Origin: Nocardia sp. NBC_00565
GTDB taxonomy: Bacteria > Actinomycetota > Actinomycetes > Mycobacteriales > Mycobacteriaceae
Length of the DNA: 64,000 bases
Assembly: GCF_036345915.1 (NCBI RefSeq)
Contig: NZ_CP107785.1
Location: 1,302,001-1,366,000, forward strand
Reading direction: 5' to 3'
A program made the translations under genes and the position numbers. Positions 36,219 to 55,552 of this stretch are shown one piece after another. The notes beneath the pieces were generated by a model that was not told the DNA's origin, ran no database searches, and saw only the letters and a program-made list of their open reading frames with translations. Each line of letters opens with the position of its first letter. Within the stretch, counting starts at the first letter, position 1.

Positions 36219-36345
36219 ACCCACCTCCTTTCGAAATATATTCGCACCCAACGCATGTCGAGCCGCTTACCTCGCCACGGACGATCGCCGACGAAAGACA
36301 GCCGCGATCCTGCTCCCTGCGAGGATCGGCCTCGGGCACGCATTC

Positions 36346-37008
36346 TCACGAGTCGATCGCGGGGGTACTGCCGTAGCCGGTGCGGATTGCAACTTCGATG
36401 ACGGCCTGGAGTTGTGTGTCGGTGAGTGGTGCGGGCCGCGCGATGGGGGCGGCGTCGAGGTATATCCGGCACAGCCATTCCAGTAGCAGTACGTTGTCCA
36501 ACGCCGCGTCCAGCGAGGCTCCTACAGCCACCGATCCGTGATGTGCCAAGATCGCGGCCTTCTTGTGTTGCAGCGCGGTCAGTGTCGCGGATGCCAATTC
36601 TTCGGTACCGAATGGGGCGAACGGCACGATGGGGAGCGCGCCGCCGAGGAGGAGTTGCTGGTAGTGGACAACGGGAAGTTCCTCGGCGATCAGCGACAGT
36701 GATACTGCGCCGGGCGAATGCGCGTGTACTACCGCTCTGGCGTCGGAGGAACGGTAGACACCTAGATGGATCTCGAGCTCCGAGGTCGGTCGCAATCGCC
36801 CGCTGTGCTGGTTGCCGGAAAGATCGACGACCGTTACGTCCCGTGCTGTCGCGTCGGCGAGAGTTACTCCGGTGGCGGTGACAGCTACCAGATCGCCGAT
36901 GCGTGCGCTGATGTTGCCGGCGGTGCCGAGCACGAGGTTGTGCGCGGCGAGCTGGTGACCGGTCCTGGCGATTGCTTCGCGAACTTCCTCGAGATCGGTG
37001 TCGCTCAT
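36346..37008 (-). CDS. Class II (FucA-type) aldolase
   Basis: A 220-residue zinc aldolase that would split a phosphorylated ketose into DHAP and an aldehyde. The likely zinc ligands are His95 and His97 (HAHS) and His157 (HHGS), with Glu77 in the SELEIH loop as base. The start overlaps the upstream kinase stop (ATGA). Kinase plus aldolase plus aldehyde dehydrogenase is a plausible sugar or sugar-acid breakdown route; 5-deoxyribose disposal is one known pathway of this kind. Confidence 0.85.
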   Translation of the reverse strand: MSDTDLEEVREAIARTGHQLAAHNLVLGTAGNISARIGDLVAVTATGVTLADATARDVTVVDLSGNQHSGRLRPTSELEIHLGVYRSSDARAVVHAHSPGAVSLSLIAEELPVVHYQQLLLGGALPIVPFAPFGTEELASATLTALQHKKAAILAHHGSVAVGASLDAALDNVLLLEWLCRIYLDAAPIARPAPLTDTQLQAVIEVAIRTGYGSTPAIDS

Positions 37009-37955
37009 GGTCGGCGAACCTGCTGTTCGGTCATGAGTTTCTGAACGGAGTCGAGGTCATACGCGCCGGAATCACTGCCGAGTCCCTGGGCGACTTGGGC
37101 GGCCGTGCTGTTCCCGAGGCGTGCTGCCTGTTCCGGGGGCATTCCCAAAGAAATGCCACGCATGAATCCGGCAGAGAACGCGTCGCCGCAGCCGCTGGTG
37201 TCGACGACATCGACGACGAACGGGGCCACCTCGGTGATTCCGGACTCGGTCGCGATCACAGTGGGGTGGGCGCCGGCCGTCGCGACGACGCAGCGTGCGC
37301 CGCGTTCCACGAGTCGACGACATCCCTCGTGCAGCGTCGACGCGCCCGTCCAACCCGTCACCTGCTCGTCGTTGGGCAGCAGATAATCGATGTGCGGTAG
37401 TGCGGCCTCGAAGTATTCGAGCGCCTCGGGTGTGCCGGGGGCGAGGCTGTCCGCCGACGTGGTCGCTCCGTGCTTTCGGGCGTGCGCGAGGATCTGCGCG
37501 GCAATGTCACCACCGTAGAATTCCGGCCCGCCCAGGTGTACCAGATCGGCGTCTGCCAACGCTGGCCACGGAATATATTGTGCCAAGTGCTGATTCGCTC
37601 CGATGACGTGGAGCGCGGGGCGCGATCCGTCCGGCCGAATCGGTAATACCGAGGCCGAGGTCTGCACATCCGGTACCCGGTGCAGCAGCGTGGTGTCGAC
37701 GCCGTCGCGTTGCAGCAGCGTTGTCAGCAGATCGCCGAGGACGTCGTCGCCGATCACGCCGCACGAATACACGGACCCGCCCAATTTGGACATGACCACC
37801 GCCGTTCCTCCCGCGGTGCCCGCCGCGCTGATCGTGATCTGCTCGACCAGGGCGCCGCCCTGACCGGCGGGGATCTCCTCGACCGGACGCACCAGCGTGT
37901 CCAAGACGTGCACACCGATCATGAGCGCCCTGACTCGTGCGTTGGTGCCTGTCAT
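37005..37955 (-). CDS. PfkB-family carbohydrate kinase
   Basis: The 316-residue sugar or nucleoside kinase has the N-terminal GG region (AAGTAGGTAVVMSKLGG) and the C-terminal signature VDTSGCGDAFSAGF, with Cys replacing the usual Ala while the catalytic Asp is kept. GGAAGGAA precedes ATG 37955. It is coupled to the aldolase by a 4-bp overlap and lies 55 bp behind the aldehyde dehydrogenase. Confidence 0.88.
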   Translation of the reverse strand: MTGTNARVRALMIGVHVLDTLVRPVEEIPAGQGGALVEQITISAAGTAGGTAVVMSKLGGSVYSCGVIGDDVLGDLLTTLLQRDGVDTTLLHRVPDVQTSASVLPIRPDGSRPALHVIGANQHLAQYIPWPALADADLVHLGGPEFYGGDIAAQILAHARKHGATTSADSLAPGTPEALEYFEAALPHIDYLLPNDEQVTGWTGASTLHEGCRRLVERGARCVVATAGAHPTVIATESGITEVAPFVVDVVDTSGCGDAFSAGFMRGISLGMPPEQAARLGNSTAAQVAQGLGSDSGAYDLDSVQKLMTEQQVRRP

Positions 37956-38010
37956 CTGTGATTCCTTCCTTATCGGAGTCAATGCGGTTCGGCTTGGGGA
38001 AGGTGCCGAG

Positions 38011-39387
38011 TCACACGGTTGAGATCAGACGGGCGAGCCAGCCGCTGAATCGGCTGTAGGGGGGTTGGACCAGCCGGGTGACATCTGGGTGGAACGGCTT
38101 CTGGAACACCGCTTTCTCATGGCTGAACGTCGTGATCGACCGCTCACCGTGATAGGCGCCCATTCCGCTCGGACCCACGCCGCCGAACGGAAGCTCAGGG
38201 ACCGCGAGATGCAGAATCGTGGTTCCGAGGACCGCGGCGCCGGAGCTGGTGTGGTCCACGAATCGGCGACGGGTGGTTCTCGATCCGCTGAAGACGTACA
38301 GCGCCAAGGGTTTGTCGCGTTCGTTGATGAACGAGATCGCCTGTTCGACGTCCGCTACTTCGACGATCGGCAAGATCGGGCCGAAGATTTCCGCACGCAT
38401 GACGGGAGAGCGCGGATCGACTTTCGTCAACACCGTCGGGGCGAGGTAGCGGGTGCCTTTGTCGGCGACGCCGCCGATGACGGCGGTGCCGTCGTCGAGG
38501 AATCTCGTCAAACGCTGGAGGTGATCATCCGACACGATGCGGCCGTAGTCGGGGCTCTGCTGAGGATCGTCGCCGAACAGGTGCCGTACCGCGTCGGTGA
38601 GCGCCGCTTCGATCGCCGGCCGAGCTGCCGGTGTCGTGAGGAGGTAATCCGGTGCGACACAGGTTTGTCCGGCGTTGACGAATTTGCCCCAAGCAATCCG
38701 GCGTGCCGCAATCGTGAGGTCGACGGTGTCATCGATCCACACCGGCGACTTGCCGCCGAGTTCCAGGGTGACCGGAGTCAATGTCGCAGCTGCAGCCTCC
38801 ATGACGATCCGACCGACTCGGCCACTCCCGGTGAAGAAGATGTGATCGAAGCGTTCCCGCAATACAGCGGTCGTGGTGTCGACGCCGCCCTCGATGACAC
38901 GGGTGGCGCGAGCGTCGAGATATCGCGGTACGAGCTCTGCCACAATCCGTGAGGTGGCCGGGGCGAGTTCGCTCGGGCGCAGCGCTACCGCGTTGCCCGC
39001 TGCCAAGGCCCCGACCAGTGGGCCGAGCAGCAGTTGGAGCGGGTAGTTCCACGGCGCAATGACCAGAACAACGCCGAGTGGTTCACGTACTACGCGTGCG
39101 CGGGCCGGTTGCAGCTTGAATGGTACGGAAACGCGTTGCGGTCGCAGCCACCTTTTGAGGTGCGACAGAGTGTGGTCGATTTCCCCGACGACGACGCCGA
39201 TCTCGGTCATGAGCGCTTCTGTCGCGCTCTTGCGCAGGTCTTGGTGGAGCGCGGTCGCGAGGGCGTTTTCGTTTTCGAGGAGTAGTCGGCGTAGTGCGCG
39301 CAGTTGGTCGGCGCGCCACGCGACGGGCCGAGTCACCCCGTCCTGGAATGCTGTTCGAAGGTCGGCTATCTGTGTCGATGGCATCAT
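38011..39387 (-). CDS. Class 3-type aldehyde dehydrogenase
   Basis: The 458-residue NAD(P)-dependent enzyme oxidises an aldehyde to the acid. Catalytic motifs are LELGGKSP (general-base Glu) and [13 protein letters not shown] (nucleophilic Cys); [20 protein letters not shown] marks the ALDH3 class, often active on fatty or aromatic aldehydes. The short N-terminus and hydrophobic C-terminus ([13 protein letters not shown]) fit that class. ATG 39387 has GAGGG upstream. It could act on the aldehyde released by the amine oxidase or by the aldolase. Confidence 0.9.
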
Positions 39388-39418
39388 CGTGATCCCTCTT
39401 CTGTGTCCGGTCGGTGTG

Positions 39419-40195
39419 TCACTCGCCCCTCGGCATTCGGCCGAGGATTGCGTTGCGCGCCCGAGCGGGCATGATGCGGCCGAAACCGACCAGCGCGGCG
39501 GTCGACCACGGGAACGAATACGACTCGCGACCTGTGACGACCGCACGAATCATGTGTGCGGCCGCGGCGTCCTCGTCGATCTCGCCGGGAGCGGCCATAC
39601 CGTCGCCCACCGTCGACTCGGTCCTGACGAAACCGGGGTAGATGGATACGAATCGAATGCCGCTTTTCGCGTATTCGATCCGGTATGTGTCGAACAGGAC
39701 CCGCAGTGCTGCCTTGGCCGCCGAGTACGGGCCTTGCAGTGGGATGCCGTACCAGCCGGCGAGTGAGTTGGTGTGCGCGACGATTCCCGAGCCGCGCTCG
39801 CGCATGTGCCGCAGGACCGGCACGAGATAGTTCACGGCGACGTCGTAATTCGTCCGCATGTATTCGGTGATGTCCTGCGCGGCGAGAGCGGTGAGGTCGA
39901 GGGCGGGTGCGCCCCCGGCATTCAACAGAACGAGATCGATTCGACCGTGCAGATCGATGACGTCGTCGACGACCTGTTGCGCGGCGGCCGCATTCGTCGC
40001 GTCGGCGGGGTGCGCCGAGCACCGACGGCCCCGCCCGGTCTGTACGGCGGCGATCTCGTTCAACAGCGTTGCGCGTCGAGCGGTAATAGCGACGGTCGCG
40101 CCCGCCTCCGCGGCCCGTTCGGCGAAGCGCCTTCCTATCCCAGTGGAGGCGCCAACCACGAGAACAACCTTGCCGCTGAGGCTAATTCGTGTCAT
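39419..40195 (-). CDS. Short-chain dehydrogenase/reductase (SDR)
   Basis: The 258-residue SDR has [14 protein letters not shown] (variant of NNAG), Ser in AHTNSLAG and the YSAAK catalytic pair. A hydrophobic C-terminal extension ([20 protein letters not shown]) resembles lipid-active SDRs. ATG 40195 lies inside the end of the SRPBCC gene (14-bp overlap) with GGAGAG upstream, so it is co-translated. Confidence 0.88.
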
Positions 40196-40661
40196 CGGAT
40201 CTCTCCGAGAGAATGACCAACTCCAGCATGCGCATCGACGCATCGAACTCGGCCGGCATCGACTTGGCGAGCAGCTTGTGCACCAGTGCGCCCAACTGGC
40301 GCGGACGTAGATCGAAGTGGAACTCATAGGTCATCGACGTGCCGTTACCGTCGTCGATCGGTGCGAAGCGGAAGACATTGATGACATTGGTGAGTGGGGC
40401 GAATCCCTTGCCCGAATCGATACGCAAGCTCATCGGCTCGATCGTTTGCACGGTCCACTCGGCCCGGGTTGTCAGCGGTCCTATCGACTTCACGCGCTCG
40501 GTGTAGGTGTCACCCTTTCGGGCTTGTTCGTGATGCTCGGTCACCTCGAGAACGCTGCTGACCCAGTCCGCGTATCTACTGGTATCGCTGGTGAGGTTCC
40601 ACACCTCTTCGGGGGACACTCTCAGATTTCGGTGGGCACTGATGACGAATCGGTCGGTCAC
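40182..40661 (-). CDS. SRPBCC-fold (polyketide cyclase/START-like) protein
   Basis: A 159-residue small-ligand-binding protein beginning FVISAHRNLRVSPEEVWNLT, the family's N-terminal strand and helix, with YADWVSSVLEV following. Such proteins bind hydrophobic ligands or act as cyclases. GTG 40661 overlaps the amine oxidase TGA. Placed between oxidase and SDR, it may hold the pathway intermediate. Confidence 0.82.
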   Translation of the reverse strand: MTDRFVISAHRNLRVSPEEVWNLTSDTSRYADWVSSVLEVTEHHEQARKGDTYTERVKSIGPLTTRAEWTVQTIEPMSLRIDSGKGFAPLTNVINVFRFAPIDDGNGTSMTYEFHFDLRPRQLGALVHKLLAKSMPAEFDASMRMLELVILSERSDDTN

Positions 40662-42040
40662 GGTAGATCTCCCTCTGCGGCAATAACTTCGGCCGCAGTA
40701 TGTGCGCCCGAGTGGACGGCGCCGTCCATGAATCCATTCCAGTAGTGCGAGTGTTCGGCGCCTGCCCAGTGCACGCGCCCGAACGGGACGTCGCGCCAAC
40801 GCCCCAATTCGGTCAGCACGCCAGGGGTGAGAACGGATGTTGGTCCGCCCCTGGTCCATTCCTCGCCAGTCCAGTCCTTCTCGATGCAGTTCGTCGGTTG
40901 CAGTGCGCGAGGGCCGACCACGGTGCTGAATGCGCGCAGGACGGCACCGCGGCGTTCGCGCGCCGGTTTGGGCGCCCAGTCCCGCCACTGCCGTCCGCCG
41001 ACGAAGCCCATCAGCACGCCGGGGCCACCGTCGGGCGGCGAATTGTCGAACATCGAACACACCGGAAACGAGGGATCGCGGAACACGGCCTGACCGGAAA
41101 GGCCGTCCGCGCGCCAGAAGGGCTCCGGATATACCGCCTCGAACTTGGCGAGCGTACCGAAGTTCATGCGCTGGAACAGCGCCTCCTGCGGTGCCGGAAG
41201 CACCGGATTCCAGGCGATTCGCGTGGCGAGCACCGGGGGAGCGGTAACGATCACCCGCCGCGCCGTCCAACTGTGTTCGTCGGTGTGGACCACCACCTCT
41301 GTGGCGGTTTGATCGATGCGTCGCACTGGCGCACCCAGGGTGATCGCATCGCCCAGTTCCTCGGCCAGCACCAACGAAATACGCTGCGAGCCACCGACAA
41401 ACCGAGCTTCCTGGGCGCCGCCGACCACATCCATCATCCGGGCGACCGTGCCCGGGGCATGTTCGTTACCGGCTCCGGCGACGTACCAGAGCCCGTACAA
41501 CGCAGACGAGTCACTCGCCGATCCGCCAAAAGCAGAACCGAGCAGGATGTTGAGCAGGTCCAGGCCACCGTCGGTGATGGCGGCTCGACGCGCCCATGTG
41601 GTCAGAGTCTGGGAGTCGAGAGCGTGCGCGTTCGGCGCTCGCCACGGCGCGTCGATGGGGATTGTCCGGGACGCCCGGTCCATTCGAGCCATGAGGAGGG
41701 CAACGTCGGCGAGCGCGGTGGGATCCGGTGGCACGCCGTCGCCGAACCTACGTGACGTTCCGTTCTTGACATAGGTGCTGTCACCTTTGTTGTAGCTGGG
41801 GAACGTATCCACGCCGAGCTCGGTCGCGAGGTCGAGAATATGGTCCTGCGTCGGCCCGACGAATTGTCCACCGGCTTCGACGACATGACCATCGCCGAGC
41901 TCATGGTTGACCGTCCGGCCGCCGACCCGGTCACGGGCCTCCAGGACATGAACATCCTGACCCGCCGCACGCAGGTCGCGAGCCGCAGTCAATCCCGCCA
42001 ATCCGGCGCCGACCACTACGACATCTGTGCGGTACTGCAC
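40658..42040 (-). CDS. FAD-dependent amine oxidase
   Basis: A 460-residue flavin amine oxidase with the dinucleotide fold VVVVGAGLAGLTAARDL, an RVGGRT loop, and a C-terminal FAD-contacting segment HWAGAEHSHYWNGFMDGAVH. It resembles actinobacterial monoamine/putrescine oxidases, which turn an amine into an aldehyde plus ammonia and H2O2. AGGAGG sits before GTG 42040. It is the first gene of a leftward operon of six genes and is divergent from a TetR gene. Confidence 0.88.
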   Translation of the reverse strand: MQYRTDVVVVGAGLAGLTAARDLRAAGQDVHVLEARDRVGGRTVNHELGDGHVVEAGGQFVGPTQDHILDLATELGVDTFPSYNKGDSTYVKNGTSRRFGDGVPPDPTALADVALLMARMDRASRTIPIDAPWRAPNAHALDSQTLTTWARRAAITDGGLDLLNILLGSAFGGSASDSSALYGLWYVAGAGNEHAPGTVARMMDVVGGAQEARFVGGSQRISLVLAEELGDAITLGAPVRRIDQTATEVVVHTDEHSWTARRVIVTAPPVLATRIAWNPVLPAPQEALFQRMNFGTLAKFEAVYPEPFWRADGLSGQAVFRDPSFPVCSMFDNSPPDGGPGVLMGFVGGRQWRDWAPKPARERRGAVLRAFSTVVGPRALQPTNCIEKDWTGEEWTRGGPTSVLTPGVLTELGRWRDVPFGRVHWAGAEHSHYWNGFMDGAVHSGAHTAAEVIAAEGDLP

Positions 42041-42146
42041 GGTTCCTCCTGTGCTGGTTCGTAACACGGCATGAAAACTCCTGGGGGGGTGTGACCTGCA
42101 CCAGAGGGAGGTCGCCGAGGTGAGCTGGTGTCACGAGCCTATTCGA

Positions 42147-42169
42147 ATATTGGCCATTTGGCCAGAATT
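42147..42169. promoter_or_regulatory. Candidate TetR operator (double TGGCCA palindrome)
   Basis: TGGCCA occurs twice with ATT-rich flanks (TATTGGCCATTTGGCCAGAA), an imperfect palindrome between the divergent amine oxidase and TetR genes. Confidence 0.6.
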
Positions 42170-42195
42170 CGTTCCGGATTGATAGTGTGCCGTTC

Positions 42196-42789
42196 ATGAG
42201 CAACGGACGTCCGGCGCGATACGCGCGAGGTCGTGAGCGGCGCGACGAGCTGATCAGTGCGGCGATCGCGGTCATCGCCGAACGCGGGATCGAGCGTGTG
42301 ACGTTCCGCGCGGTCGCGGACCGGGCCGGCTTTCCTGCGTCGACGACGAGTTACTTCTTCAGCTCGGTGGACGAGGTGATCGACGCGGCCATCACCCGTG
42401 TCGCGGAAACGATTACCGGCAACGTGGCCGACCTGCTGGAGACCGCTCGATCCGGCGAGATGACCCGCGACGAGCTGGCCGAAAGCCTGATCGAACTCGT
42501 CGCCGGGCAGGACAACGACGATTCCGTTGCCCAGTTCGAGGCATACCTCGCCGTCCGCCGGCGTCCAGAACTGGCCGAGCCGGTGCATCGCATTATGGCG
42601 AGCATCGAGGAAGCGGCCGAAAAGGCGCTCGAGAGCTTCGGCGTCGCGGATCCGAGCATCCCCGCCAAGCAATTCCTGGCCCTGATCGATGGATTCACTC
42701 TGCAGGAAATCGCTCGACCGGGCCGGCCCGAGAGCCGCCGAGCCCTGAGCGATCTCATGACCCGCATCCTGGACTCGTACGCCAAATGA
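42196..42789 (+). CDS. TetR/AcrR-family transcriptional regulator
   Basis: The ~198-residue protein has an HTH reading VTFRAVADRAGFPASTTSYF (~38-58) and a TetR_C-like domain. ATG 42196 or GTG 42187 are both possible starts; neither has a ribosome site, so a leaderless mRNA is likely. Divergence from the amine oxidase operon and the shared palindrome suggest that it represses that operon in response to an amine or aldehyde. Confidence 0.88.
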   Translation: MSNGRPARYARGRERRDELISAAIAVIAERGIERVTFRAVADRAGFPASTTSYFFSSVDEVIDAAITRVAETITGNVADLLETARSGEMTRDELAESLIELVAGQDNDDSVAQFEAYLAVRRRPELAEPVHRIMASIEEAAEKALESFGVADPSIPAKQFLALIDGFTLQEIARPGRPESRRALSDLMTRILDSYAK

Positions 42790-42838
42790 GCTGACTGCCC
42801 GATCGCAGGCCGATCGACCGTTTTTCGAGGTGGGGGAG

Positions 42839-42855
42839 CGGGACCAGAACGGGAC
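42839..42855. repeat. 17-bp direct repeat, left copy
   Basis: CGGGACCAGAACGGGAC, exactly repeated at 49397-49413. Both copies are preceded by TTTCGAGG at 8-9 bp. Confidence 0.85.
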
Positions 42856-42962
42856 CACGCGCTATGAACGCCCGCTGTCGACCAGCACATCTGGAGCGCA
42901 CGGAAACTTTGAAAGTAGTACTGTGACCTGCACTTTCGGCCCCCGACCGACCTGGGTTCAAG

Positions 42963-42993
42963 TGGTCGCAGGTTCAAATCCTGTCATCCCGAC
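42963..42993 (+). other. tRNA-Pro-like 3' end fragment (possible att site)
   Basis: The segment reads as T arm plus acceptor 3' strand: GCAGGTTCAAATCCTG then TCATCCCGAC. No D or anticodon arm lies upstream, so this is not a whole tRNA. Duplicated tRNA 3' ends mark integration boundaries. The rest of 42790-43073 is without a gene. Confidence 0.6.
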
Positions 42994-43073
42994 AACCGGT
43001 AGACCTTGACAGGCGTAGTTGAACCAGGCTGTCGACGATGATAAGGATGTGCTCGATCTCGGCATCCGAACAA

Positions 43074-46000
43074 CTAACCTGGTCGCCGCCGCTTCCGAAC
43101 TACTGCGCCTCGCGAACCACGAGGTGGTGTCGGTGTCGGATCGAGTACCGTTCCCGGTAGATCCGGTAGAAGTATCTCTCTTCCCTTGAGTGAATCGCTG
43201 TAGCGCGAACCTTCTGCAGTCTTGGTGGCACGTTCGAGCCATAGGCGTGCCGCCGCAGGATCCGGTGGATCCACCACGGACTCGAATAAATTGGCAAGGT
43301 TCTGCATCGCAAGTCTGTCACCATATTCAGCAGCGCGTTCCCACCATATTTGGGCAGTAACAAGGTCAGGTGGGGCGAGATAGTAAGCGAGGAGTTGCCC
43401 AAGGATTGTCATCGCGTTTCGGTCACCGAGGCGCGCAGCTTTCTCTACCCAACTTCGGGCTGAGATAATATCTGGTGGTTCTACGTTGCTCAACAGTAAA
43501 TAGCCGAGGTTGCACATCGCGCCCGTGTCACCAAGTTCAGCTGCGCGTTCAAACCACGTCCTTGCTCCGTCGAAATCAGGAGGCTCCAGAAGGGTGCACT
43601 TTAAGGCGCCTAGATTTGTCATGGAGCGAGTGTCGCCAGCCAGCGCTGCGCGCTCATACCAGGTCTCAGCAGAGACAAGGTCGGGAGCGTCTTTACGCGT
43701 CGCAAATAGCATGCCCAAATTATGCATGGATGCTGATTCACCATTTTCGACTGCGCGCTCATACCAATACTGAGCTTCAGGGTACCTCCCAAGAGAAGAC
43801 AGGATACCGCCGAGGTTGGTCATTGCCGGAGGATGCCCTGCTTCGGCAGCGTGCTGGTACCACCCTCGGGCGCCTTCAAGGTCGGGCGGCGTCGATTGAT
43901 TTGCTAGTAGATGCGCCAAGTTATGCATACTCACAGGTACGCCAGCTTGCGCTGCGGTCAGATACCAGCGTTTAGCGGCCTCGATGTCCGGCGGATCGAA
44001 TTTGCTGCTCAACAGATTTCCGAGATTCACCATCGAATTTGTGTCACCTGATAGTGCGCCGTACTCGTACCATCGGCGCGCTGCCACAAGGTCCGGTGGA
44101 GATTGCACTTCTGACAACAGAATAGCGAGGTCGAACGCCGAGTGAGGTTCACCAGCCGCGATGGCACGTCTCCACCATTTCTTCGCAAGCTTCAGATCAG
44201 CAGGCTCCCACTTGTATGCGAATAAATTGCCCAGGTTGTGCATCGCTGCCGACTCGCCGAGACTGGCTGCGCGTTCGCTCCAATATCTAGCGGCGACGAT
44301 TTTCGGTTCTGGGAGCTCCGAAAGAAGTGCGCCAAGGCTGACCATCGCGGCTGTGTGATCATCTTCAGCGGCTTTCTGGAATGCCGCAATCGCCACGGAT
44401 ATCTTCTCGCGGAGATACGCAGCCGAGCCGATTGCAAATGCCACGGACGCAGACGATTGATCTAGGATCTTCATCCAGAAATTTTCCGGAATAGGCCGCG
44501 CTGGCGGTGACTGTCCATCATCTGCTGCGACCAGATAGTCGAACGGATCGTATCCGCGGGCGTTTCCATCGAGCGGGATCGTGGAGAGGGGCCCGACGCG
44601 TGCTGCGGACTCAGGCGCTACTCGGAGCCTTTTAAGGGCATCGCGCAGTGTTTGTTCGTCGGCATCAAGTTCAGGATGCCCTGCCCGCAGGGTGTCCTTC
44701 GCGTATGTGATCAGCGTTGCTTCGTCGATGGGATGCGGCACCCCGACTCGCACCCAGTCGATCGCGACAGTGAGCAGCGCATGTCCGTACGGGTCGGAGA
44801 ACTCAGCTGCACGATATAGGCCGAGCAGCACTGGTGCACCGGCCATGTGAGCGCCAAGACCGAAGGTGAGGTCCTGGTTCGGGTAGGCGCCCTCTGCGGC
44901 AGTTTGTTCATTTGGGTCGGCGGTCGTTGGCAAGAGTTCGATTATGATCGCACGGTCGAGTAGCAGTCGAAGATCTCGCGAGGGTTCACCTGTTGCGGCT
45001 CGCAACCTGGCCAGTTCCTCCAGGCGGAGCGTGGCTACGATCGCCGTGTGGCCAGCGCGAGCGTTGAAGCGCGAAGTCTGTATGTTTGTGATAGGTCTTT
45101 CGTGAGTGAGGTATCGCTGGAGGTCGTCGAGCCATATGACTACATCCGTAAGCGTCGTCTGTACGGCGGGATGTTCAGCGACTTTATCGATCTCGCCTGG
45201 AACCGGTGACACAAGCAGTGCGTTCGGAGCGACAGACCGGATTGCCTCATAGAGGCTGCGAGTCTTGCCGGCCTTGGATGGCCCGGCGAGCAAGATTATC
45301 CGATCAGTGGGCGTTTCTTCGGCAATCGCAGCGCGTACTGCATCACGGATTCGCGTGTCGACGTCATTGTATGTCCGTGGCACGTACGGGTCATGTCGAA
45401 TGTAGCTCTCCGAGTCGCCATACGGCGAAACCGTTGCTCCTAGGCGATAAGGATCGAGATCTTTTGTGTAGGGTAATAGATCGCCTGCGAGCACTTCGAC
45501 TAATTCGTGCAACGGTCGGACCGGGATGCTCATCGCCCACGGCATATGCTCCATGTGGGATATCCCAAGCGCCTCTGAAATAGCTTGTGTTACTGGATTG
45601 CTACTTGCCGCGATGCGGTCGAACCCGATCAGCCGGAGAGCGGATTCACCCTGTCTCGGGTGATGTTCGACGATGACGCCAATACCGCGGTTGGCGTGGA
45701 ACACAACTGCACCGGACAAGCCTCCCCAGGCCGGTTCTTGGATACGTCGGTCGGTTCCGTTTGAATATGGCTTGTTGCGATCAGCTATCGACGTCTGGGG
45801 CGCGTCGAGTACAGGTCTCACAAGAGGTTCCCGCATCAGCAAATAGTTGGATTCGACACCGTCCAGCTGGTAGATTATTCCGTGTAACTCAGCCAGCTGG
45901 CGCGTCGCGTCCTTCGGATCTCGTTGGAAGATCGGAAACCCCACCGCAACGCAGTCGGACAGTATTCCGGTTACATCTCGTCGAACTCGGGCTAATTCGG

Positions 46001-46310
46001 GTTGAGGGGTGTCGCTAGACCAGTCTTGATGCTCAGGAAGTCGGATAACTGCAATATCCAGATCTGGTGCCGCACTGACTGAAGAATTGGGGATACGTAG
46101 GAATTTTCCGTCGCTTGCTCGGATTACACGGATCCCGAGACCGTATTGACCTGTCAATTTGTTACGCGTGCAATGTCGCGCGGTGACCACCAAGCGGGGT
46201 GCGATCAGGAAGCCGCTACCGACTTGTGAACGATTGCCAGGAAGTGAGACGACCACGGCGACGACGTGGTCCAACCGAACGGCAGAGCTGTCGCTTTTCG
46301 ATGCGGTCAC
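43074..46310 (-). CDS. Trypsin-like protease / STAND NTPase / Sel1-repeat conflict protein
   Basis: A 1078-residue three-part protein. Residues ~15-240 form a trypsin-like protease with a complete triad: His46 (TARHC), Asp85 (DLDIAVI) and Ser199 (WGGLSGAVV). Residues ~330-640 form a P-loop ATPase with Walker A GPSKAGKT (~343-350) and Walker B VVIWLDDL (~391-398). Residues ~650-1040 hold about eleven Sel1/TPR-like repeats of ~36 residues, many with a PPD insertion. It directly follows the trypco2 gene (18-21-bp gap). The pair matches predicted NTP-dependent conflict systems in which a sensor-repeat STAND ATPase releases an effector, here a protease. GTG 46310 is used (TTG 46313 is possible); no strong ribosome site. 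Base composition is lower in GC than its neighbours, suggesting transfer. Confidence 0.85.
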   Translation of the reverse strand: MTASKSDSSAVRLDHVVAVVVSLPGNRSQVGSGFLIAPRLVVTARHCTRNKLTGQYGLGIRVIRASDGKFLRIPNSSVSAAPDLDIAVIRLPEHQDWSSDTPQPELARVRRDVTGILSDCVAVGFPIFQRDPKDATRQLAELHGIIYQLDGVESNYLLMREPLVRPVLDAPQTSIADRNKPYSNGTDRRIQEPAWGGLSGAVVFHANRGIGVIVEHHPRQGESALRLIGFDRIAASSNPVTQAISEALGISHMEHMPWAMSIPVRPLHELVEVLAGDLLPYTKDLDPYRLGATVSPYGDSESYIRHDPYVPRTYNDVDTRIRDAVRAAIAEETPTDRIILLAGPSKAGKTRSLYEAIRSVAPNALLVSPVPGEIDKVAEHPAVQTTLTDVVIWLDDLQRYLTHERPITNIQTSRFNARAGHTAIVATLRLEELARLRAATGEPSRDLRLLLDRAIIIELLPTTADPNEQTAAEGAYPNQDLTFGLGAHMAGAPVLLGLYRAAEFSDPYGHALLTVAIDWVRVGVPHPIDEATLITYAKDTLRAGHPELDADEQTLRDALKRLRVAPESAARVGPLSTIPLDGNARGYDPFDYLVAADDGQSPPARPIPENFWMKILDQSSASVAFAIGSAAYLREKISVAIAAFQKAAEDDHTAAMVSLGALLSELPEPKIVAARYWSERAASLGESAAMHNLGNLFAYKWEPADLKLAKKWWRRAIAAGEPHSAFDLAILLSEVQSPPDLVAARRWYEYGALSGDTNSMVNLGNLLSSKFDPPDIEAAKRWYLTAAQAGVPVSMHNLAHLLANQSTPPDLEGARGWYQHAAEAGHPPAMTNLGGILSSLGRYPEAQYWYERAVENGESASMHNLGMLFATRKDAPDLVSAETWYERAALAGDTRSMTNLGALKCTLLEPPDFDGARTWFERAAELGDTGAMCNLGYLLLSNVEPPDIISARSWVEKAARLGDRNAMTILGQLLAYYLAPPDLVTAQIWWERAAEYGDRLAMQNLANLFESVVDPPDPAAARLWLERATKTAEGSRYSDSLKGREILLPDLPGTVLDPTPTPPRGSRGAVVRKRRRPG

Positions 46311-46331
46311 CAAGGTCGCCGTTGATCTCGG

Positions 46332-46673
46332 CTAGTCTGCGCCTGCGTCAACTGGACCGAAGCGATCGCCTTCTGCGTTCATGCTGGCGATCGAAAAGTC
46401 TTGCGTCGTGGTTCCGTCTGGTAGGCCCCACATCGGTGTCAACAGGAGCTTGAGGGTCTGGGTTCGAGCTTTCTCGTAGGTGCCGCCGAACTCGATAATC
46501 TTCCATCCGATTTGACCGTGCGCGTCCTTGGTGACCGCAGCCTCGACCGTTAGCTCAATGGGTTCTAGGCCAAACCGCATAGGTTGGTTCCAGCCGTCTT
46601 GCATCGCGGAGGTGAGCTCTTCGCGCAGTGCACGTATCGCATCCGCCAAGCCCACCAGTGCTCTGTCTGACAT
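46332..46673 (-). CDS. Trypco2 (trypsin-co-occurring domain 2) protein
   Basis: The 113-residue protein starts with an amphipathic helix, LADAIRALREELTSAMQDG, then beta strands (FGLEPIELTVEAAVTKDAHG and WKIIEFGG). This is the layout of the trypco2 domain described as a constant partner of trypsin-STAND conflict proteins. AAGGGG precedes ATG 46673. First gene of a two-gene operon with the protease-NTPase; it probably acts as an adaptor. Confidence 0.85.
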   Translation of the reverse strand: MSDRALVGLADAIRALREELTSAMQDGWNQPMRFGLEPIELTVEAAVTKDAHGQIGWKIIEFGGTYEKARTQTLKLLLTPMWGLPDGTTTQDFSIASMNAEGDRFGPVDAGAD

Positions 46674-46978
46674 TTCGCCCCTTCTGAGTGATGCATTGCG
46701 TGCCGACGAACCCCTAGAATCATGCCGTTTCCGAGCGGCTTCCGCTAGACATCGACGTTATTCGTCTAACCGGCCAACAGAGGTACTGTTCTTCGAACCG
46801 GCCAGACGGTCTGGGAAAGGCTGCGGAATCTCGGACAATGCAAGATTGTGGTCCTGGTTCGCGGAGTTTGGCGCACAGTGTTCTGACGTCACGGCACGCT
46901 AGCACTCGACGATCGCTCCGATGAATGCCATCGTGATTCAACCCTGATTCGGACACACGGTCTGAATATCGACCCTGG
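46674..46978. other. Intergenic stretch upstream of the trypco2 gene
   Basis: A leftward frame (46720-46956) contains VRDSAAFPRPSGRFEEQYL, faintly like an AlpA-type excisionase, but start and HTH are not convincing. The promoter of the conflict operon should lie here. Confidence 0.3.
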
Positions 46979-46995
46979 TTAGACCCACCTCCAGG

Positions 46996-47443
46996 TTATC
47001 TCGTGGATGGGCGCATCCTCACTCCTCGCGCACGCAAGGCCTTCCACACACTGCCCTTGGCCTTTCTTAAGTTTGAGCCCGATAGTTCTCAACGAGTCTC
47101 CAGCAGCGTAAAGTTCGACAGCTCTGTCGATTTCGTCCTCCGTCATCGGTTGGTAGCGCATCTCGGCGCCGTGCTCGAGCAGGATCTTCAGCAGCCCACC
47201 CTTCGACAGGTGGTGCCTCTCGCACAACTCGCCAGTCGAGCTGCCGCTGAGATAGGCGTCAACCAACTGAGCGATCGCGCTAGCGGACAGGCGTCGGTCC
47301 AGCCGTCGTGCCTGGACGGAGCTGTTGGCCTTCGTCAGCTGCCGCGGCACGGATACATCCACCAGCTTGATGACCTTGCGCAGCTGCTCGACCTGTCGGT
47401 GTTTCAAGTAGCGTCCCAGTAGGTCGACTGGAACGGAGGATAG
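46996..47443 (-). pseudogene. HTH (recombinase-associated) protein, frameshifted; copy 1
   Basis: The frame reads RRLDRRLSASAIAQLVDAYL, GELCERHHLSKGGLLKILLE and PMTEDEIDRAVELYAAGDSL: two HTH units like those in serine-recombinase-associated proteins. Near 47065 one extra G shifts the frame; removing it restores GSVWKALRARGVRMR and a stop at 46996. The same protein occurs as copy 2 at 50.7-51.1 kb. Confidence 0.7.
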
Positions 47444-48109
47444 AGGACGGCACTTGAACCGTCCGATCCCGCGGTGACACCGACAGCGGGGGTATGCTGA
47501 CGGCCGAGCCGAAGATCGCAGCAACTGGGCGGGAATCGGGGGATGCTTCCGAACTGGGGGGAGCAATGGGGCAGCTGTGGATCAGGACTGCAGCTGGACC
47601 TGATGAATTGCGATGGTTGCTCGATCGACGTCGCCAGAAATGCAGTCGCCGACTGGCGATCGTTCCTCGAACAGCACGGCTACCTCTGAGGCCCCAGTTT
47701 TCCTACACGTCGAGGCGTTGCCGAAAGGAATACGCGTGGGGGACAGGGCCCCAGCCTCCTCATGGCTCGATTGTCTGACCTCACTCGCCCGTGTCAAGGG
47801 AAAGAGCGCCCTTGACACGACCTCCCTCCGCTCAGGGATGGCCAGTATGAGGAAGCACGGGAAGAGAAGTCACCAGACTTACCCCTACGGGCTTCGTATC
47901 ACTAGAGTGTCACTACCACCGACACTCCCGGACGACCGGAAAACCGAATCCCCACGTCACGATCCCCTTGACAATCGAAGTCGAATCGGATTGGCCGACG
48001 CCGATTAGCGCCTGCCCGGTGTAGCTCATCCAATGCATGGTGAGCGCCGGTCTCAGGGTGATGTAACCGCCGGGTCCGAAACACACCCACATCTTTCGAC
48101 TCCGTTTGC
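47444..48109. other. Stretch without an intact gene between HTH copy 1 and the HEPN gene
   Basis: A short biased frame (47603-47689) ends RNAVADWRSFLEQHGYL. Copy B of the IS-end-like element lies within. No intact gene is seen. Confidence 0.4.
47806..47870 (+). repeat. Dispersed IS-end-like element, copy B
   Basis: CTTGACAC, then a small hairpin (CCTCCCT...AGGGATGG), then CCAGTATGAGGAAGCACG and AGAAGTCACC. It parallels copy A at 30551-30600. The form recalls the hairpin end of IS200/IS605-type elements, but no tnpB is present. Confidence 0.45.
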
Positions 48110-49327
48110 TCAGGTACTCGCCGACTGCGGCTCAGGAGGTGAGTCGTCGTGCCGGACGGTTAGCCCTGACAACGTGACCGCCGTCTGCACGTTCATAGCC
48201 GCGGTCGGCGACAGTGCCATCTTCATTCTCAGGTCGCATCCCTTTGCCAAGTGCAAGGCTTCTTTTTGCGGCAGAATCCCCAATTGCCGCGACGAACGCA
48301 TGACGCTGGCTGGGAATCCGGGGACTACCGAACTCAGCGGAAATGCGATCGCAACGACTTCTGCTGCGGTCTTGATGGCAGTCTCCGCCTCGACCTTGCT
48401 GAGGGCCGCACCCTTGTGAGCTGCTTTGTTGCGCGTAGCGCCGACGTTCTGGACCAAATTCTTGGGTAATCGCCCTGAGGCGTGTCGCTTCTTGTGGAGC
48501 TGCGTGAGCTTGAAGAGTCCATGGTGTGCGCCGAACTCTCTCGTACGTTCGGCTTGGCTCGTTCCGTCGTCATCAAACTTTCGGTCGATAAGCGCGATCA
48601 CGGATAGTTCTGTTGCAGTGCAGGCGTCTATCGCTGCACGTCGGTACTCGCCAGCGTTGAGCAGGGAGCGCGCATCCCTCATGAACAACCATTCGGCGTC
48701 GGGTTGCGTTTCACGCGCTGCCAGATCCAACGCGGACTGTAGTTGGTGCTCATCGAGGACTTCGACTTGATGTATTCCGCCCGTCAGAAACTGGTAGCTG
48801 ATGCCTGCCTTGCGGATACCGGCTGAGTCGCCGCTCCACATCTGTACCGAATCGTTGAGGATGCTCCGCTGGGCGCGTTTGAGGCTGGCAAAGTCCTGCA
48901 AAGTGAGAACGTCGAGCCAGTCGCACACGGACTTCCACCAGACCGCCAACTCGTCACCGAACTGCTCGGCGGCCGCCTGGAACTGGGCCTCATCGTTCGC
49001 TGCAACCTCTGAGTGAACAACGCACCGCAGGATGTGCGCATAGGTCGGCGTCTCTGCACTAGCGCCAGCAACAGACCCCCACTCGTCACTTGACCAGTAG
49101 GCGTCTCGGTCGTCTCCCGCGAGAACGTATGTCCACGGCGCGCGTCGGAGTCCGTTCTCCTCTGGGCCGTCACTTCGCGTTGGCAACGTGATGGACAACC
49201 CGTAGTTCGCTGTTCGCGAGAGGAACGTCTGCCCGAGGCAGTCGGGCGTCACCAAAAAGCCACTACCACAGGCGAAATGACCCTCCAGAGGCCACGCGGT
49301 AGTTGTCTCTTCGCTGTCTTCAACCAC
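48110..49327 (-). CDS. HEPN-domain protein, candidate defence RNase
   Basis: The 405-residue protein has an unassigned N-terminal region (~1-215, starting near WPLEGHFACGSGFLV) and a C-terminal HEPN-like helical domain: DARSLLNAGEYRRAAIDACT, then HKKRHASGRLPKNLVQ and the R-x4-H motif RNKAAH (~298-303) used by HEPN ribonucleases. The layout resembles HEPN proteins with N-terminal sensor domains found in anti-phage islands. The GTG start has AAGGGG about 13 bases upstream. It has no toxin-antitoxin partner visible; neighbours are other accessory genes. Confidence 0.65.
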   Translation of the reverse strand: MVEDSEETTTAWPLEGHFACGSGFLVTPDCLGQTFLSRTANYGLSITLPTRSDGPEENGLRRAPWTYVLAGDDRDAYWSSDEWGSVAGASAETPTYAHILRCVVHSEVAANDEAQFQAAAEQFGDELAVWWKSVCDWLDVLTLQDFASLKRAQRSILNDSVQMWSGDSAGIRKAGISYQFLTGGIHQVEVLDEHQLQSALDLAARETQPDAEWLFMRDARSLLNAGEYRRAAIDACTATELSVIALIDRKFDDDGTSQAERTREFGAHHGLFKLTQLHKKRHASGRLPKNLVQNVGATRNKAAHKGAALSKVEAETAIKTAAEVVAIAFPLSSVVPGFPASVMRSSRQLGILPQKEALHLAKGCDLRMKMALSPTAAMNVQTAVTLSGLTVRHDDSPPEPQSAST

Positions 49328-49396
49328 GAGATGGTCCGCCCCTTCGATTTCGTGTGCTTACTGTTGCACGTGCACCCTATTTCGAGGCACCGACAA

Positions 49397-49413
49397 CGGG
49401 ACCAGAACGGGAC
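49397..49413. repeat. 17-bp direct repeat, right copy
   Basis: CGGGACCAGAACGGGAC, identical to 42839-42855. The gap 49328-49666 otherwise shows no supported gene. Confidence 0.85.
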
Positions 49414-49666
49414 ACCGCGAGTGGTCGCCGCGCGTTGTTTACCAGGGTGTAGCTCGTCTGACCAGCGTTGGCCGTGGCGGCAGTATCGTTGCGGGGGTCA
49501 CCGTCCGATCCCATGCGCAGCTGAGGCTGTACCAACACAACTTGGCGAGCTATCGTCGATATCTGCAGTGCGCGCGGGCGCCTATCTGTTGGTGGCCGAA
49601 CATATCTTGTCCGTACACTGCGTGCGTCGATGACATGTTCGTGATGCTGGCAGAGCGGCGGTAAGG

Positions 49667-50659
49667 ATGCATTTCGATGAGAGCCGTATCGCCGGGCTGA
49701 GTCCGGCATACGCACGGATCATGGAGCTACTCGATCTCTACCCGCGCGGGGTTCAAGCACGGCGATTAGCGGAGTTACTGCGCCCGTGGGATGCCAAGAA
49801 CACGGAGGAACCACCCAGTGGCAAGGAGATCAAGTCGCTTCGGTCCAAGCTGGCGAACCTGGAGAGCAAGGGGCTGGTGGCTATTGAACGGACCACCGAG
49901 TACGGCAATATCTATCGTCCGGTAGGTAGCTATTTCGACATGGCGAATTGGACTATCGAGGGTGCCCGGGAGAACTATGTCAAGGACCGTATGGAGCGCT
50001 TCGGAGCGGATCAACTCCCGGTAGCTGCGTATTCGATGACGCTCGGCGTATGGCGGAACACGATTGTGGAGGACGCCCATGCGGGCAATGGGCTGAACCG
50101 AATCAGCGATGGAGAAATGATGGCTGCAAATGTGGCCGTGTTCCGTCTGTGCCGCGAATTTCTAATGGTGGGTGATCGTAGTCGGGCAGCGTGGCTACGC
50201 TTGCTGGATGAGCTGATTCTTCCTGCTGATGGGATTAAGGTTGGGTCGCGCAACGTGGCCGATCTGCTCGGTGAGCATTATCAAGAGTGGATGAGCAGCG
50301 CGGCGTCAACACTTATGTATTGGGCTGATCTCACAGAGCGTGAAGACCACGACATGGAATGGTTTATCGCGGTGAAATCCTGTTTCGGCAGTCCTCACCG
50401 AGAATGGTTCGGTATGCCGGATTGGCCACGGCTGGTAGACGCGTTTGTGGCCAAGGAATATGGCGGCTCGACCAGTCCGGCCGATGCGGCGCGGTACCCG
50501 GATATCTATACCGATGGCGTGAAGCCGCGCGCGAAACTGCCAATTTCGGACGACGAACTGCGTGACGGGTTACTGCAGGGTCCGGACCGCATGGACTCCA
50601 AGGTGCTGGATTGGTGCATCGGCGACGGAATCGGATACATGAAACTGGATCGCGACTAG
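49667..50659 (+). CDS. Winged-helix N-terminal protein of unknown function
   Basis: The 330-residue protein begins with a winged-helix-like domain (SPAYARIMELLDLYPRGVQA, then LRSKLANLESKGLVAIERT). The rest is helical and acidic, with WYADL-type aromatic residues (STLMYWADLTEREDHDMEWF), and is not recognised. No membrane segment. A weak AAGG precedes ATG 49667. It stands alone in the accessory region, convergent with HTH pseudogene copy 2; a regulatory role is a guess. Confidence 0.6.
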   Translation: MHFDESRIAGLSPAYARIMELLDLYPRGVQARRLAELLRPWDAKNTEEPPSGKEIKSLRSKLANLESKGLVAIERTTEYGNIYRPVGSYFDMANWTIEGARENYVKDRMERFGADQLPVAAYSMTLGVWRNTIVEDAHAGNGLNRISDGEMMAANVAVFRLCREFLMVGDRSRAAWLRLLDELILPADGIKVGSRNVADLLGEHYQEWMSSAASTLMYWADLTEREDHDMEWFIAVKSCFGSPHREWFGMPDWPRLVDAFVAKEYGGSTSPADAARYPDIYTDGVKPRAKLPISDDELRDGLLQGPDRMDSKVLDWCIGDGIGYMKLDRD

Positions 50660-50698
50660 AACGGCCGCGAGACGCGCCAGAAGGCGGATCACCCCTGC

Positions 50699-51142
50699 TC
50701 ACCTGCACATCGATACACCTCGCCCGCGCAACGCCTTCCACACGCTCCCCTTGGCTTTGCCCAAACTTCGCGCCGCAGTGTTCAATCATTGCCCGCCTGT
50801 GTAAAGCCGTACCGCCCAGTCGATCTCGTCCTCCGTCATCGGCTGGTTCCGCATCTGCACCCCATGCTCCCGCAGGATCTTCAGCAGCCCGCCTTTCGAG
50901 AGGTCGTACCGTTCGCACAGCTGGTTCGTGGATGAGCCTTCCCGATAACCCTCAACCTCGGCCACGATCGCAGACGACAGCCGTCGATCCAACCGCCGCG
51001 GTTTCACCGCGATGCTGTCTGCCGTCGAAGGTCCGCGAGTCGGGGCAGCGTCCACCTTGGCGATAACCGTACGCAGCCAATCTGGTTCCCATTGTTTCAA
51101 GTACCGTCCGGTAGCCCTGACCAGGTCAGAGGTAGTTTCCAC
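50699..51142 (-). pseudogene. HTH (recombinase-associated) protein, nonsense mutation; copy 2
   Basis: A paralogue of the 47-kb copy: RRLDRRLSSAIVAEVEGYRE, NQLCERYDLSKGGLLKILRE and PMTEDEIDWAVRLYTGGQ. TGA 50786-50788 replaces the Ser codon of the GDSL-like segment, and the frame then continues to GSVWKALRGRGVSM and a stop at 50699. Confidence 0.7.
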
Positions 51143-51285
51143 TCCTCCACCGCATTCGGGCTCGTCGGCACCGAGCCGGCAGGCGGCTTGACGTGGGTGC
51201 CGTCGAACAAGGGAAGTTGAACTCGACGTCAGAATCGAATATGGTATCGACTTATATTGCCGCGGTGGACGAGGTGACCCTGAGT

Positions 51286-52223
51286 ATGGACACACACAAT
51301 CTGCTGGACGAGTGGCTGGGGCTCGGTAGCCGCCAGGTCGCGACGAATGGGATCGAGTTGCGGGTCGTCGAGCACGGCGACGGTCCCGCTGTTCTGTTCT
51401 GTTCTGTCATGGCTTTCCCGAGCTCGGATTCTCTTGGCGCCACCAAGTTTTCGCGCTCGCCGAGGCCGGTTTCCGGACGTTGACTCCGGATATGCGCGGA
51501 TACGGTGGCAGCTCTCGGCCCGGCCGGATCGAGGACTACGACATGGCCACCCTGTGCGCTGATCTCGTCGGTGTCCTCGACGAGGTCGGTGTCGAGGATG
51601 CGATCTTCGTCGGCCATGACTGGGGTGCGTCGGTGGTGTGGCAGGTGGCCCTTCGGCATCCGGAACGAGTGCGGGCCGTCGCGGGGCTGAGTGTTCCCGC
51701 TACACCGAGGTCGGCCGCGCCGCCGTTGCCGATACTGCGGTCCCGGCTCGGCGACGACTTCTATATGTGCTGGTTCCAGGAGCCGGGTCGCGCGGACACG
51801 GAGCTCGCGTCGGACGTGCGCCGTACGCTGCTGCAGGACGATGTCGTCAGTGCCCGGGATCTGTTGAGCGGCAACGGTTCCGAGATGCCCGCTCCGGCCT
51901 GGCTGAGCGAGGACGAACTCGGTTACTACATCGCGACTTTCACGACCACCGGGTTCACCGGCGGACTCAACTACTACCGCAATCTCGACCGTAACTGGGA
52001 ACTGAGTGCGCACCTGGCCGATGCGAAGATCCACCAGCCTGCGCTGTTCATCGCCGGGTCGGAGGATGCCGTCATCCGGTTCACCCCGACGACCAAGATG
52101 GCTTCCGTACTCTCCGACCTGCGGGCGCCCGTTGTCCTGGACGGGGCGGGACACTGGATTCAACAGGAACGTGCCGCCGAAGTCAGCGCCGCGCTGATCG
52201 ACTTCGCCCGCAGCGTCGGCTGA
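51286..52223 (+). pseudogene. Epoxide hydrolase (alpha/beta hydrolase), frameshifted in a CTGTT repeat
   Basis: The first frame from ATG 51286 (GAGGTGA upstream) reads NLLDEWLGLGSRQVATNGIE and ends GPAVLFC. The second frame continues CHGFPELGFSWRHQVFALAE through 52223, with the nucleophile elbow VGHDWGA, and GAGHW for the catalytic His. Together they form a complete ~310-residue epoxide-hydrolase-type enzyme. The break is inside CTGTT repeated 3.8 times (51389-51407). Loss of one unit would restore the frame. Confidence 0.8.
51389..51407 (+). repeat. Pentanucleotide (CTGTT) tract inside the epoxide hydrolase
   Basis: Three full CTGTT units plus CTGT. It is located just before the HGFPE codons, at the exact point where the reading frame changes. 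Confidence 0.9.
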
Positions 52224-52227
52224 AGGT

Positions 52228-53121
52228 CTATACGTCGGTCTCGAGCGCCTGCCGATAGCGCGCGGACAGCGTATGCGGGAATCCGAGGTCACCTTCGGTT
52301 ACTCGGATCGCCAATGGTGCGGCGAGTGCACGCAGGCGCGCGCACCCGGCTTCGCCGATCGCTTCGTACGGATAGACCGAGAGTTCATCGGTCCGGCTCT
52401 CGATCGCGCCGCGCCGCTCGGAGCCCTGCTCGCTCAGCACGGCACCATCGTCGGTCAGCCAACCCCGCTCACGAAGCCGTCGCACACCGTCGGCCCATTC
52501 CGCCTCGCTCCAGGATCGGCTGGCGCGCAACACTTCCGGCGATATCTGGCCGGTCGCGCTGTGGGTGATCAATGCCTCGATACCGTCCAGCCCCTCCGTC
52601 AGTAGCAGGGCGACGTGTCCGTCGCCGCGGTACTCCCGCAACAGTGTCTGCGCATGCCACAGCACCAGATGTGGTTCGTCGGGCCACGGCGGCGCCGCAT
52701 GCGCCGCGAACAACGGACGGCCCTGCGGGCGTTCGCAAGCACGTTCGGCGGCTCGCCGGGCAAGCTCGGCGGCCGCACGCACCTCGGGGCCGCTGATGTC
52801 ATCACCCCACACCTGCCGAAGCGACCGGTCGACCGCACGCAGACGAGCTCGAAAGATATCTGCGGGAGAGGCGATTTCCCATGCGGCTGGGATGACGGCC
52901 CGCACCGCGGCCGGATTGAAATTGAAGAATGTGGCGATGGTGACCTCGGCAGGCACCTGCCCGAATGCCGCGGACCGGGCTGCGAAGTACATCATCCGCG
53001 GATCCGTAATGCCCAACTCACGGTAGGCATCCGGGCCGTGCGGGGTGAAGTAGATCATCCCGTGGATCGGCTCGAGTGCGCGGAAGGTCAGATGGGCACT
53101 GTGCGGTGAGACCGTGGTCAA
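52228..53121 (-). CDS. SCO6745-family (SalK-like) protein
   Basis: A 297-residue protein with the family N-terminus GMIYFTPHGPDAYRELGI and MYFAARSAAFGQVPAEVTIA, the NFNPAAVRAVIPAAW segment, and a C-terminal winged-helix-like half. These proteins are widespread in actinobacteria and of unknown biochemical role. The TTG start has GGAG 8 nt upstream. It is the last gene of the FadD operon. Confidence 0.8.
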   Translation of the reverse strand: MTTVSPHSAHLTFRALEPIHGMIYFTPHGPDAYRELGITDPRMMYFAARSAAFGQVPAEVTIATFFNFNPAAVRAVIPAAWEIASPADIFRARLRAVDRSLRQVWGDDISGPEVRAAAELARRAAERACERPQGRPLFAAHAAPPWPDEPHLVLWHAQTLLREYRGDGHVALLLTEGLDGIEALITHSATGQISPEVLRASRSWSEAEWADGVRRLRERGWLTDDGAVLSEQGSERRGAIESRTDELSVYPYEAIGEAGCARLRALAAPLAIRVTEGDLGFPHTLSARYRQALETDV

Positions 53122-53164
53122 GGGCGTTGCTCCGGTATCTGCTTGTGGCCGTGCATCATTTGGA

Positions 53165-55341: not shown

Positions 55342-55412
55342 GGCATGCTCCAGATTCATGAGTGGGCTAGCACCGATGTGACCCGGGCCACGTCAGTGGA
55401 TCGGAACATTAA

Positions 55413-55434
55413 TTGAATTTGGCGTCACATTCAA
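55413..55434. promoter_or_regulatory. TetR-type operator upstream of FadD
   Basis: A 22-bp palindrome with arms TTGAA and TTCAA and core GGCGTCAC. It matches, in inverse orientation, the site at 57618-57639 at 18 of 22 positions. Confidence 0.65.
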
Positions 55435-55552
55435 GGGATGTTGCGCCGATCCCGGTTGGCGCCGGCGCCGGCGCGGCATCGCGGGGTCGCGGGAGCGGCG
55501 TGCGCTGTTACGATCCACCACATCAGCGAGCCGGACGACAGCGAGTGAGGCA

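Follow-up and report, generated by a model that had tools for sequence, protein, structure and literature searches.

A trypco2 gene and a large protease-ATPase-repeat gene form a two-gene unit

The 64,000-nucleotide stretch analysed here (the window; G000:C1:1302001-1366000) belongs to the single-contig, 9.71 Mb genome of Nocardia sp. NBC_00565 and carries, on its minus strand, two adjacent genes: trypco2 and a large gene whose product joins an N-terminal trypsin-type protease domain, a STAND-like ATPase core and a C-terminal array of Sel1-type repeats (Table 1). A preliminary description of this DNA had proposed the pair as a two-component conflict system; both open reading frames (ORFs) were confirmed, with trypco2 directly before the large gene and 18 bp between them. 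A genome-wide Trypco2 search of this genome returned one match only, that of the window. The database copy of the large protein (P0001, 1078 aa, beginning MTASKSD) uses a GTG start at 46310, one codon downstream of the TTG start adopted here, which is why the catalytic serine is Ser200 in our numbering and, correctly for the GTG start, Ser199 in the preliminary description.

Trypco2 matched its own Pfam family at 68.7 bits (cut-off 24.2), and this was its sole Pfam match; it matched no NCBIfam or PADLOC model. The large protein exceeded the curated Pfam cut-offs for Trypsin_2 (PF13365; 31.9 bits against 27.6), Trypsin (PF00089; 28.4 against 20.6) and Sel1 (114.1 against 30.7). The trypsin and Sel1 parts of the earlier label 'trypsin-STAND-Sel1' were thus upheld by curated models, while for the STAND part no curated family model was matched over its cut-off, and the label depends on motifs, layout and the fold predicted for the core.

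Table 1 Features of the two-gene unit and its left flank (window coordinates; residue numbers count from the TTG start)
Feature	Position	Strand	Evidence or remark
trypco2 gene, 113 aa	46332-46673	-	PF19631, E 5.1e-19
Trypsin / STAND-like ATPase / Sel1 gene, 1079 codons	43074-46313	-	TTG start at 46313
Trypsin-type protease domain, about residues 10-250	45564-46286	-	
Catalytic His47	46173-46175	-	Kept in 38/38 trypsin-bearing proteins
Catalytic Asp86	46056-46058	-	Kept in 38/38 trypsin-bearing proteins
Catalytic Ser200 (Ser199 from the GTG start)	45714-45716	-	Kept in 37/38; Thr in P0083
STAND-like ATPase core, about residues 260-605, including a putative helical and winged-helix-like part	44499-45536	-	93 aligned cores, model, fold matches
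Walker A GPSKAGKT, residues 344-351	45261-45284	-	First G, last G and K of GKT invariant, 93/93
Walker B region VVIWLDD (WLDDL from W394)	45123-45143	-	W 93/93
Sel1-type repeat array, residues 622-1042, ~12 helix pairs	43188-44450	-	PF08238, model, pattern count
Basic tail, low confidence, probably disordered, residues 1043-1079	43077-43187	-	pLDDT <50 from residue 1037
36-bp copy of tRNA-Pro(GGG) 3' end, likely integration scar	42958-42993	+	Match to intact tRNA-Pro

The protease, the ATPase core and the repeat arm keep their characteristic residues

To compare the large protein with its relatives, 7994 candidate proteins were scored, chosen as those sharing most words with the query, so that the protein counts given here are lower bounds. 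Ninety-five proteins matched the ATPase region with E no higher than 1e-3; 93 of these enter the ATPase counts and 38, the window's protein included, the counts for the protease triad. The preliminary description had called the triad intact and had named its conservation among homologues as one check of the proposal. The histidine and the aspartate proved to be present in every trypsin-bearing protein and the serine in all but one. Together with a Walker A lysine kept in all 93 cores, this answers that check in favour of function: the triad is intact and conserved across divergent homologues, and proteolytic activity is predicted.

The fold of the protease domain resembles Deg/HtrA, among others. 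Comparison with protease sequences in the PDB gave weak matches (best E 0.0005), whose listed stretches do not extend beyond the first half of the domain. Near the active serine, W196 and H217 are conserved. A glutamyl-endopeptidase-like specificity was considered from these two residues by comparison with the pocket described in the available part of PMC5508998, and was dropped, as by motif the histidine does not fall at position 213; at the two candidate trypsin-specificity positions, aspartate is not among the commonest residues. We claim no specificity for the domain.

The ATPase core retains both Walker motifs, as had been reported. Among the 93 aligned cores the P-loop reads GKT or GKS throughout, while the first acidic residue of Walker B is aspartate in 82, glutamate in 10 and asparagine in one (D or E in 92/93). 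Modelled alone, the core reached a predicted local distance difference test score (pLDDT) of 90.2, and the fold predicted for it matches those of SAMD9, Apaf-1 and AAA+ proteins. The core passed no curated STAND model over its cut-off, and at E up to 1 Pfam listed none of the named families nSTAND3, nSTAND5, NACHT and NB-ARC for the window's protein. Among 36 relatives scanned, nSTAND3 touches seven (best E 0.0031) and AAA_16 touches 23. A genome search with nSTAND3 was set aside, as it matched 147 of 148 genomes and all 14 control genomes. Matches of the core profile to PDB sequences were mainly to ABC transporters (best E 0.0028) and were taken as chance. The assignment of the core to the STAND class is therefore a prediction from motifs, layout and modelled fold.

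In the whole-protein model (mean pLDDT 86.9) the Sel1 array forms 24 helices. With nine strict Sel1 pattern matches and seven PPD triplets in the window's protein, the earlier count of about eleven repeats with a PPD insertion was a fair one. Across the 38 trypsin members the pattern count spans 0 to 23, a spread that would suit a varying sensor.

Trypco2 follows the protease rather than the ATPase

A whole-protein scan of genome contigs found no relative, and an alignment query of the same contigs yielded 38 loci with the ATPase core; by profiles built for Trypco2, the protease and the core, eight of these carry the protease and 30 do not. The trypsin-bearing loci lie in Pseudarthrobacter, Arthrobacter, Mycobacterium, Frankia, two Streptomyces, a Pseudonocardiales metagenome-assembled genome (MAG) and a MAG of another actinomycete. 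Directly upstream of the large gene, trypco2 was present at 7/8 trypsin-bearing loci versus 0/30 trypsin-less ones (Fisher p 6e-7, a value that overstates independence, since these loci share ancestry). At L087, the one trypsin-bearing locus lacking it, the upstream ORF reads like an ABC-transporter ATPase. At the trypsin-less loci, the Trypco2 profile, built after four of 18 sequences had been dropped as wrong-strand or empty, scored at best E 2.1 with filters off; among these 30, L105 has no upstream DNA, L083 and L085 have about 1 kb or less, and L100-L107 are distant relatives at ~30% identity. Besides the two genes, none was common to the eight trypsin-bearing loci and window 36000-56000 at E 1e-5, some of the contigs being short and the neighbouring ORFs having been chosen mechanically. 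Pairwise matches among neighbours comprised antisense frames over trypco2, a recombinase-like pair (L071/L094) and a weak TetR-like pair (L087 and the window). Conservation, tight linkage and recurrence in several genera thus support the two genes as a unit, as first proposed.

Similar searches within the window's genus extended this association to other proteins. A Trypco2 match occurred in 24 of 150 genomes, the window's own counted in. Besides the window's match there were 24, of which the 17 stronger were kept and seven (E 7.5e-7 to 6.9e-4) left out. A trypsin-type ORF lies directly downstream of trypco2 at 15 of the 17 (spacing -79 to +88 bp), the other two being L115 and L124, and none of these 15 neighbours matched the ATPase-core profile of the window. 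Nine of the 15 were scanned with Pfam: five carry nSTAND_NTPase5 (three over cut-off) together with TPR, two a sub-threshold NACHT match, one WD40, and one TPR with weak Sel1. For four of the nine the trypsin call came from our own profile, L108 and L109 giving no Pfam trypsin match at E 0.01 and L111 and L114 staying under the cut-off. That the nine trypsin-type neighbours scanned sit on other chassis indicates, at the level of gene order, that Trypco2 follows the protease and not the ATPase. This makes the role of Trypco2 a direct question of binding or cleavage.

The same ATPase core carries different N-terminal and C-terminal domains

Sorted by N-terminus, the 95 core proteins comprise 38 with a full protease, three with a truncated protease, 28 whose N-terminus lies at or close to the core, and 26 with another segment. 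The other segments include a caspase domain in P0004 (Pfam) and P0009 (precomputed domains), HNH_2 in P0037 (at its cut-off) with P0057 similar, and several groups resembling helix-turn-helix domains. A related segment of ~120-173 residues precedes the core in P0005, P0008, P0010, P0012, P0014, P0017, P0028, P0030 and P0032; the one protein scanned (P0008) gave no Pfam match there. Given its place at the effector position, it could be an unnamed effector or adaptor. As for CHAT, P0075 and P0092 carry such a domain at the C-terminus, and P0020 begins with a CHAT remnant. In P0092 this ATPase core is flanked on both sides, by a trypsin-type domain at the N-terminus and by the CHAT protease domain at the C-terminus.

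The N-terminal variety, the CHAT domains and the range of Sel1 counts together give the pattern of a modular receptor, with an exchangeable effector, a constant switch and a variable sensor. One ATPase core with differing candidate killer domains should aid comparison of bacterial immunity with that of animals built on nucleotide-binding, leucine-rich-repeat (NLR)-type receptors.

Comparison with known systems

Trypco2 beside a trypsin-like peptidase was named in 2020 in the VMAP ternary systems (Kaur et al. 2020, PMC7159879), and the pairing is also mentioned for diversity-generating loci (PMC10907252); the available parts of these two sources give Trypco2, which owes its 2020 name to the company it keeps, no role beyond 'adaptor'. 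In the part of PMC7159879 available, the VMAP systems resemble the present unit in gene pairing and in a predicted counter-invader role and differ in having MoxR and vWA partners; in the present unit the protease forms one protein with a STAND-like ATPase and a Sel1 array, and there is no common third gene. No MoxR or vWA match was found among 19 window proteins scanned, which cover part of the neighbouring ORFs.

A similar layout is that of Avs5 of AVAST type 5 (PMC12931631, seen in part), which has a Sir2-nSTAND3-repeat order with TPR and Sel1-like repeats and a repeat domain described as essential for activation. The unit shares with it an N-terminal effector, a STAND-type ATPase, C-terminal repeats including Sel1-like ones and, by structure search, a SAMD9-like character; it differs in its trypsin-type effector, its core without a curated model and the presence of Trypco2, and neither Sir2 nor nSTAND3 was matched by Pfam in the large protein. 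The NCBIfam model for Avs1b, the protease of AVAST type 1, touches only the start of the protease (residues 28-131 of the large protein), and its full-length model scored 16 bits against a cut-off of 1500. Membership of the SAMD9 family, described in the accessible part of PMC5445408 by a GGT/S P-loop and AlbA, Sir2-like and OB domains, was rejected: the P-loop reads GKT, and those three domains were unmatched in Pfam. In the trypsin-nSTAND5-TPR loci of the genus the arrangement is the same: trypco2 immediately precedes a gene whose product starts with a trypsin-type domain and continues into a STAND ATPase and repeats. The clade of the ATPase differs.

Our literature search turned up no earlier account of Trypco2 together with a protein of the trypsin-STAND-Sel1 type, although supplementary tables, which lay outside the search, may list it; the available parts of PMC8195603 and PMC5445408 do not describe this architecture. 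The pairing of Trypco2 with trypsin has accordingly been known since 2020, and the trypsin-STAND-like-Sel1 form is a new variant of it. The preliminary description had called the system undescribed, which holds for the architecture as far as the literature search reached and not for the pairing.

Proposed mechanism

Taken together, we favour, at a probability of roughly 60%, a compact NLR-like conflict unit in which a sensor would activate a protease that a dedicated partner, Trypco2, holds. Sensing would fall to the arm formed by the Sel1 superhelix, the STAND-like ATPase would act both as switch and as the hub of oligomerisation, and the trypsin-type domain at the N-terminus would serve as effector. 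Before activation the large protein would probably adopt a closed state with ADP bound. The trigger, for which a phage protein is the likeliest candidate, may bind the Sel1 array, upon which nucleotide exchange would open and assemble the ATPase, and the clustered protease domains would cut a cellular, phage or self target, stopping the infected cell. Sensing, assembly, target and outcome, and with them an immune role, are proposed here from the layout and by analogy with Avs5. Trypco2, made first and probably translationally coupled, would bind the protease domain and hold or present it, a putative adaptor-like role; this partner relation, to which the gene linkage points, is the best supported step of the scheme.

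A wider reading, which we hold tentatively and at somewhat less than even odds, is that trypco2 and the trypsin-type domain form a transferable effector cartridge mounted on several unrelated NLR-type chassis. The present chassis would then be an actinobacterial STAND-like clade without a curated model, taking a protease, a caspase or an HNH nuclease in front and CHAT behind a variable repeat sensor. If so, Trypco2 would be a general gatekeeper of bacterial immune trypsin-type proteases.

The same linkage would also arise if Trypco2 were both substrate and executor, the activated protease cutting it to release a fragment that damages or signals, with the receptor part working as above. Between the window and seven related loci, Trypco2 is more conserved (52-56% identity) than the protease domain (42-49%), in keeping with such a role. 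A binding partner, however, would be expected to be just as tightly conserved, and a length of 113 aa with a match to its own Pfam family and to nothing in NCBIfam or PADLOC counts against an executor. We regard this alternative as unlikely, if less so than those that follow.

Genomic setting and other roles for the unit

The GC content of the two-gene unit is 57.3% versus 64.8% for the window outside 42962-51900, and its GC at third codon positions (GC3) is 0.57 versus 0.72-0.80 in three tiled ORFs to the left. The near end of the unit lies 81 bp beyond the tRNA-Pro scar. The last 32 bp of the scar match exactly the 3' end of an intact tRNA-Pro (G000:C1:1161090-1161166; L044 5091-5167), and four further bases of the 36 were matched by reading both sequences. 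This tRNA lies 184 kb to the left and is adjoined by a tyrosine-recombinase-like fragment (L044 5183-5818), an arrangement suggestive of a very large island that stops next to the unit. Because the scar separates the unit from the 184-kb stretch between the tRNA ends, the unit is beside, and not clearly inside, the putative island; the low GC together with the nearby scar nevertheless suits mobile defence genes. The right boundary of the acquired stretch was not found, as the contig of the best relative ends where the match ends. In plasmid records no place reached 80% query coverage, the best (a Nocardia plasmid) covering residues 266-1030, and phage records gave seven matches, all inside the repeat part. 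On another contig (G009:C411; L147 and L148), two tRNA-Pro-like 3' ends lie ~11 kb apart, one of them near a 65% match to window 49.8-50.6 kb, possibly marking a related element.

Rather than serving immunity, the unit could be a regulatory or stress-response protease, its Sel1 arm sensing a host client and its protease turning over host proteins, as the resemblance to Deg/HtrA and the 28 of 95 core proteins that have no sizeable segment before the core would allow. We consider this improbable: the distribution is patchy, with none of the matches listed in 98 related genomes spanning the protease and the core together; the alignment in genome G039 begins only at residue 94, and the protein there (P0081) lacks a trypsin match. 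The low local GC, the tRNA scar and the varied N-terminal domains fit conflict genes better.

Defence against, or exclusion of, plasmids or other mobile elements would overlap with the favoured conflict unit and differ from it in its target. The proximity of the unit to a duplicated tRNA-Pro end, and the recombinase-like fragment next to the intact tRNA, are compatible with it; the tRNA-bracketed stretch, however, lies on the far side of the scar and does not define the carrier of the unit itself. We rate this version as low as the stress-protease one. A decaying or non-functional remnant, to which the deviating GC3 might point, is very improbable, as both frames are open, the triad and the P-loop are intact and the model is confident.

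Neighbouring genes and other features of the window

Upstream of trypco2, a 195-aa ORF of helix-turn-helix character (46979-47566, minus strand) gave a weak match to the Cbp1 helix-turn-helix model (E 2.7e-5; 24.1 bits, cut-off 140). A 405-aa ORF (48110-49327, minus strand), 1.4 kb upstream of trypco2, gave a weak HEPN match (E 0.019) and contains the motif R-N-K-A-A-H (R-x4-H), which we take to be the HEPN RNase motif. Elsewhere in the window, a second STAND-type protein (17274-20552, plus strand) combines protein kinase, NB-ARC, TPR and LuxR-type helix-turn-helix parts, and a 3487-aa protein (1193-11656, plus strand) matches the Tc toxin TcA C-terminal and ABC toxin N-terminal models.

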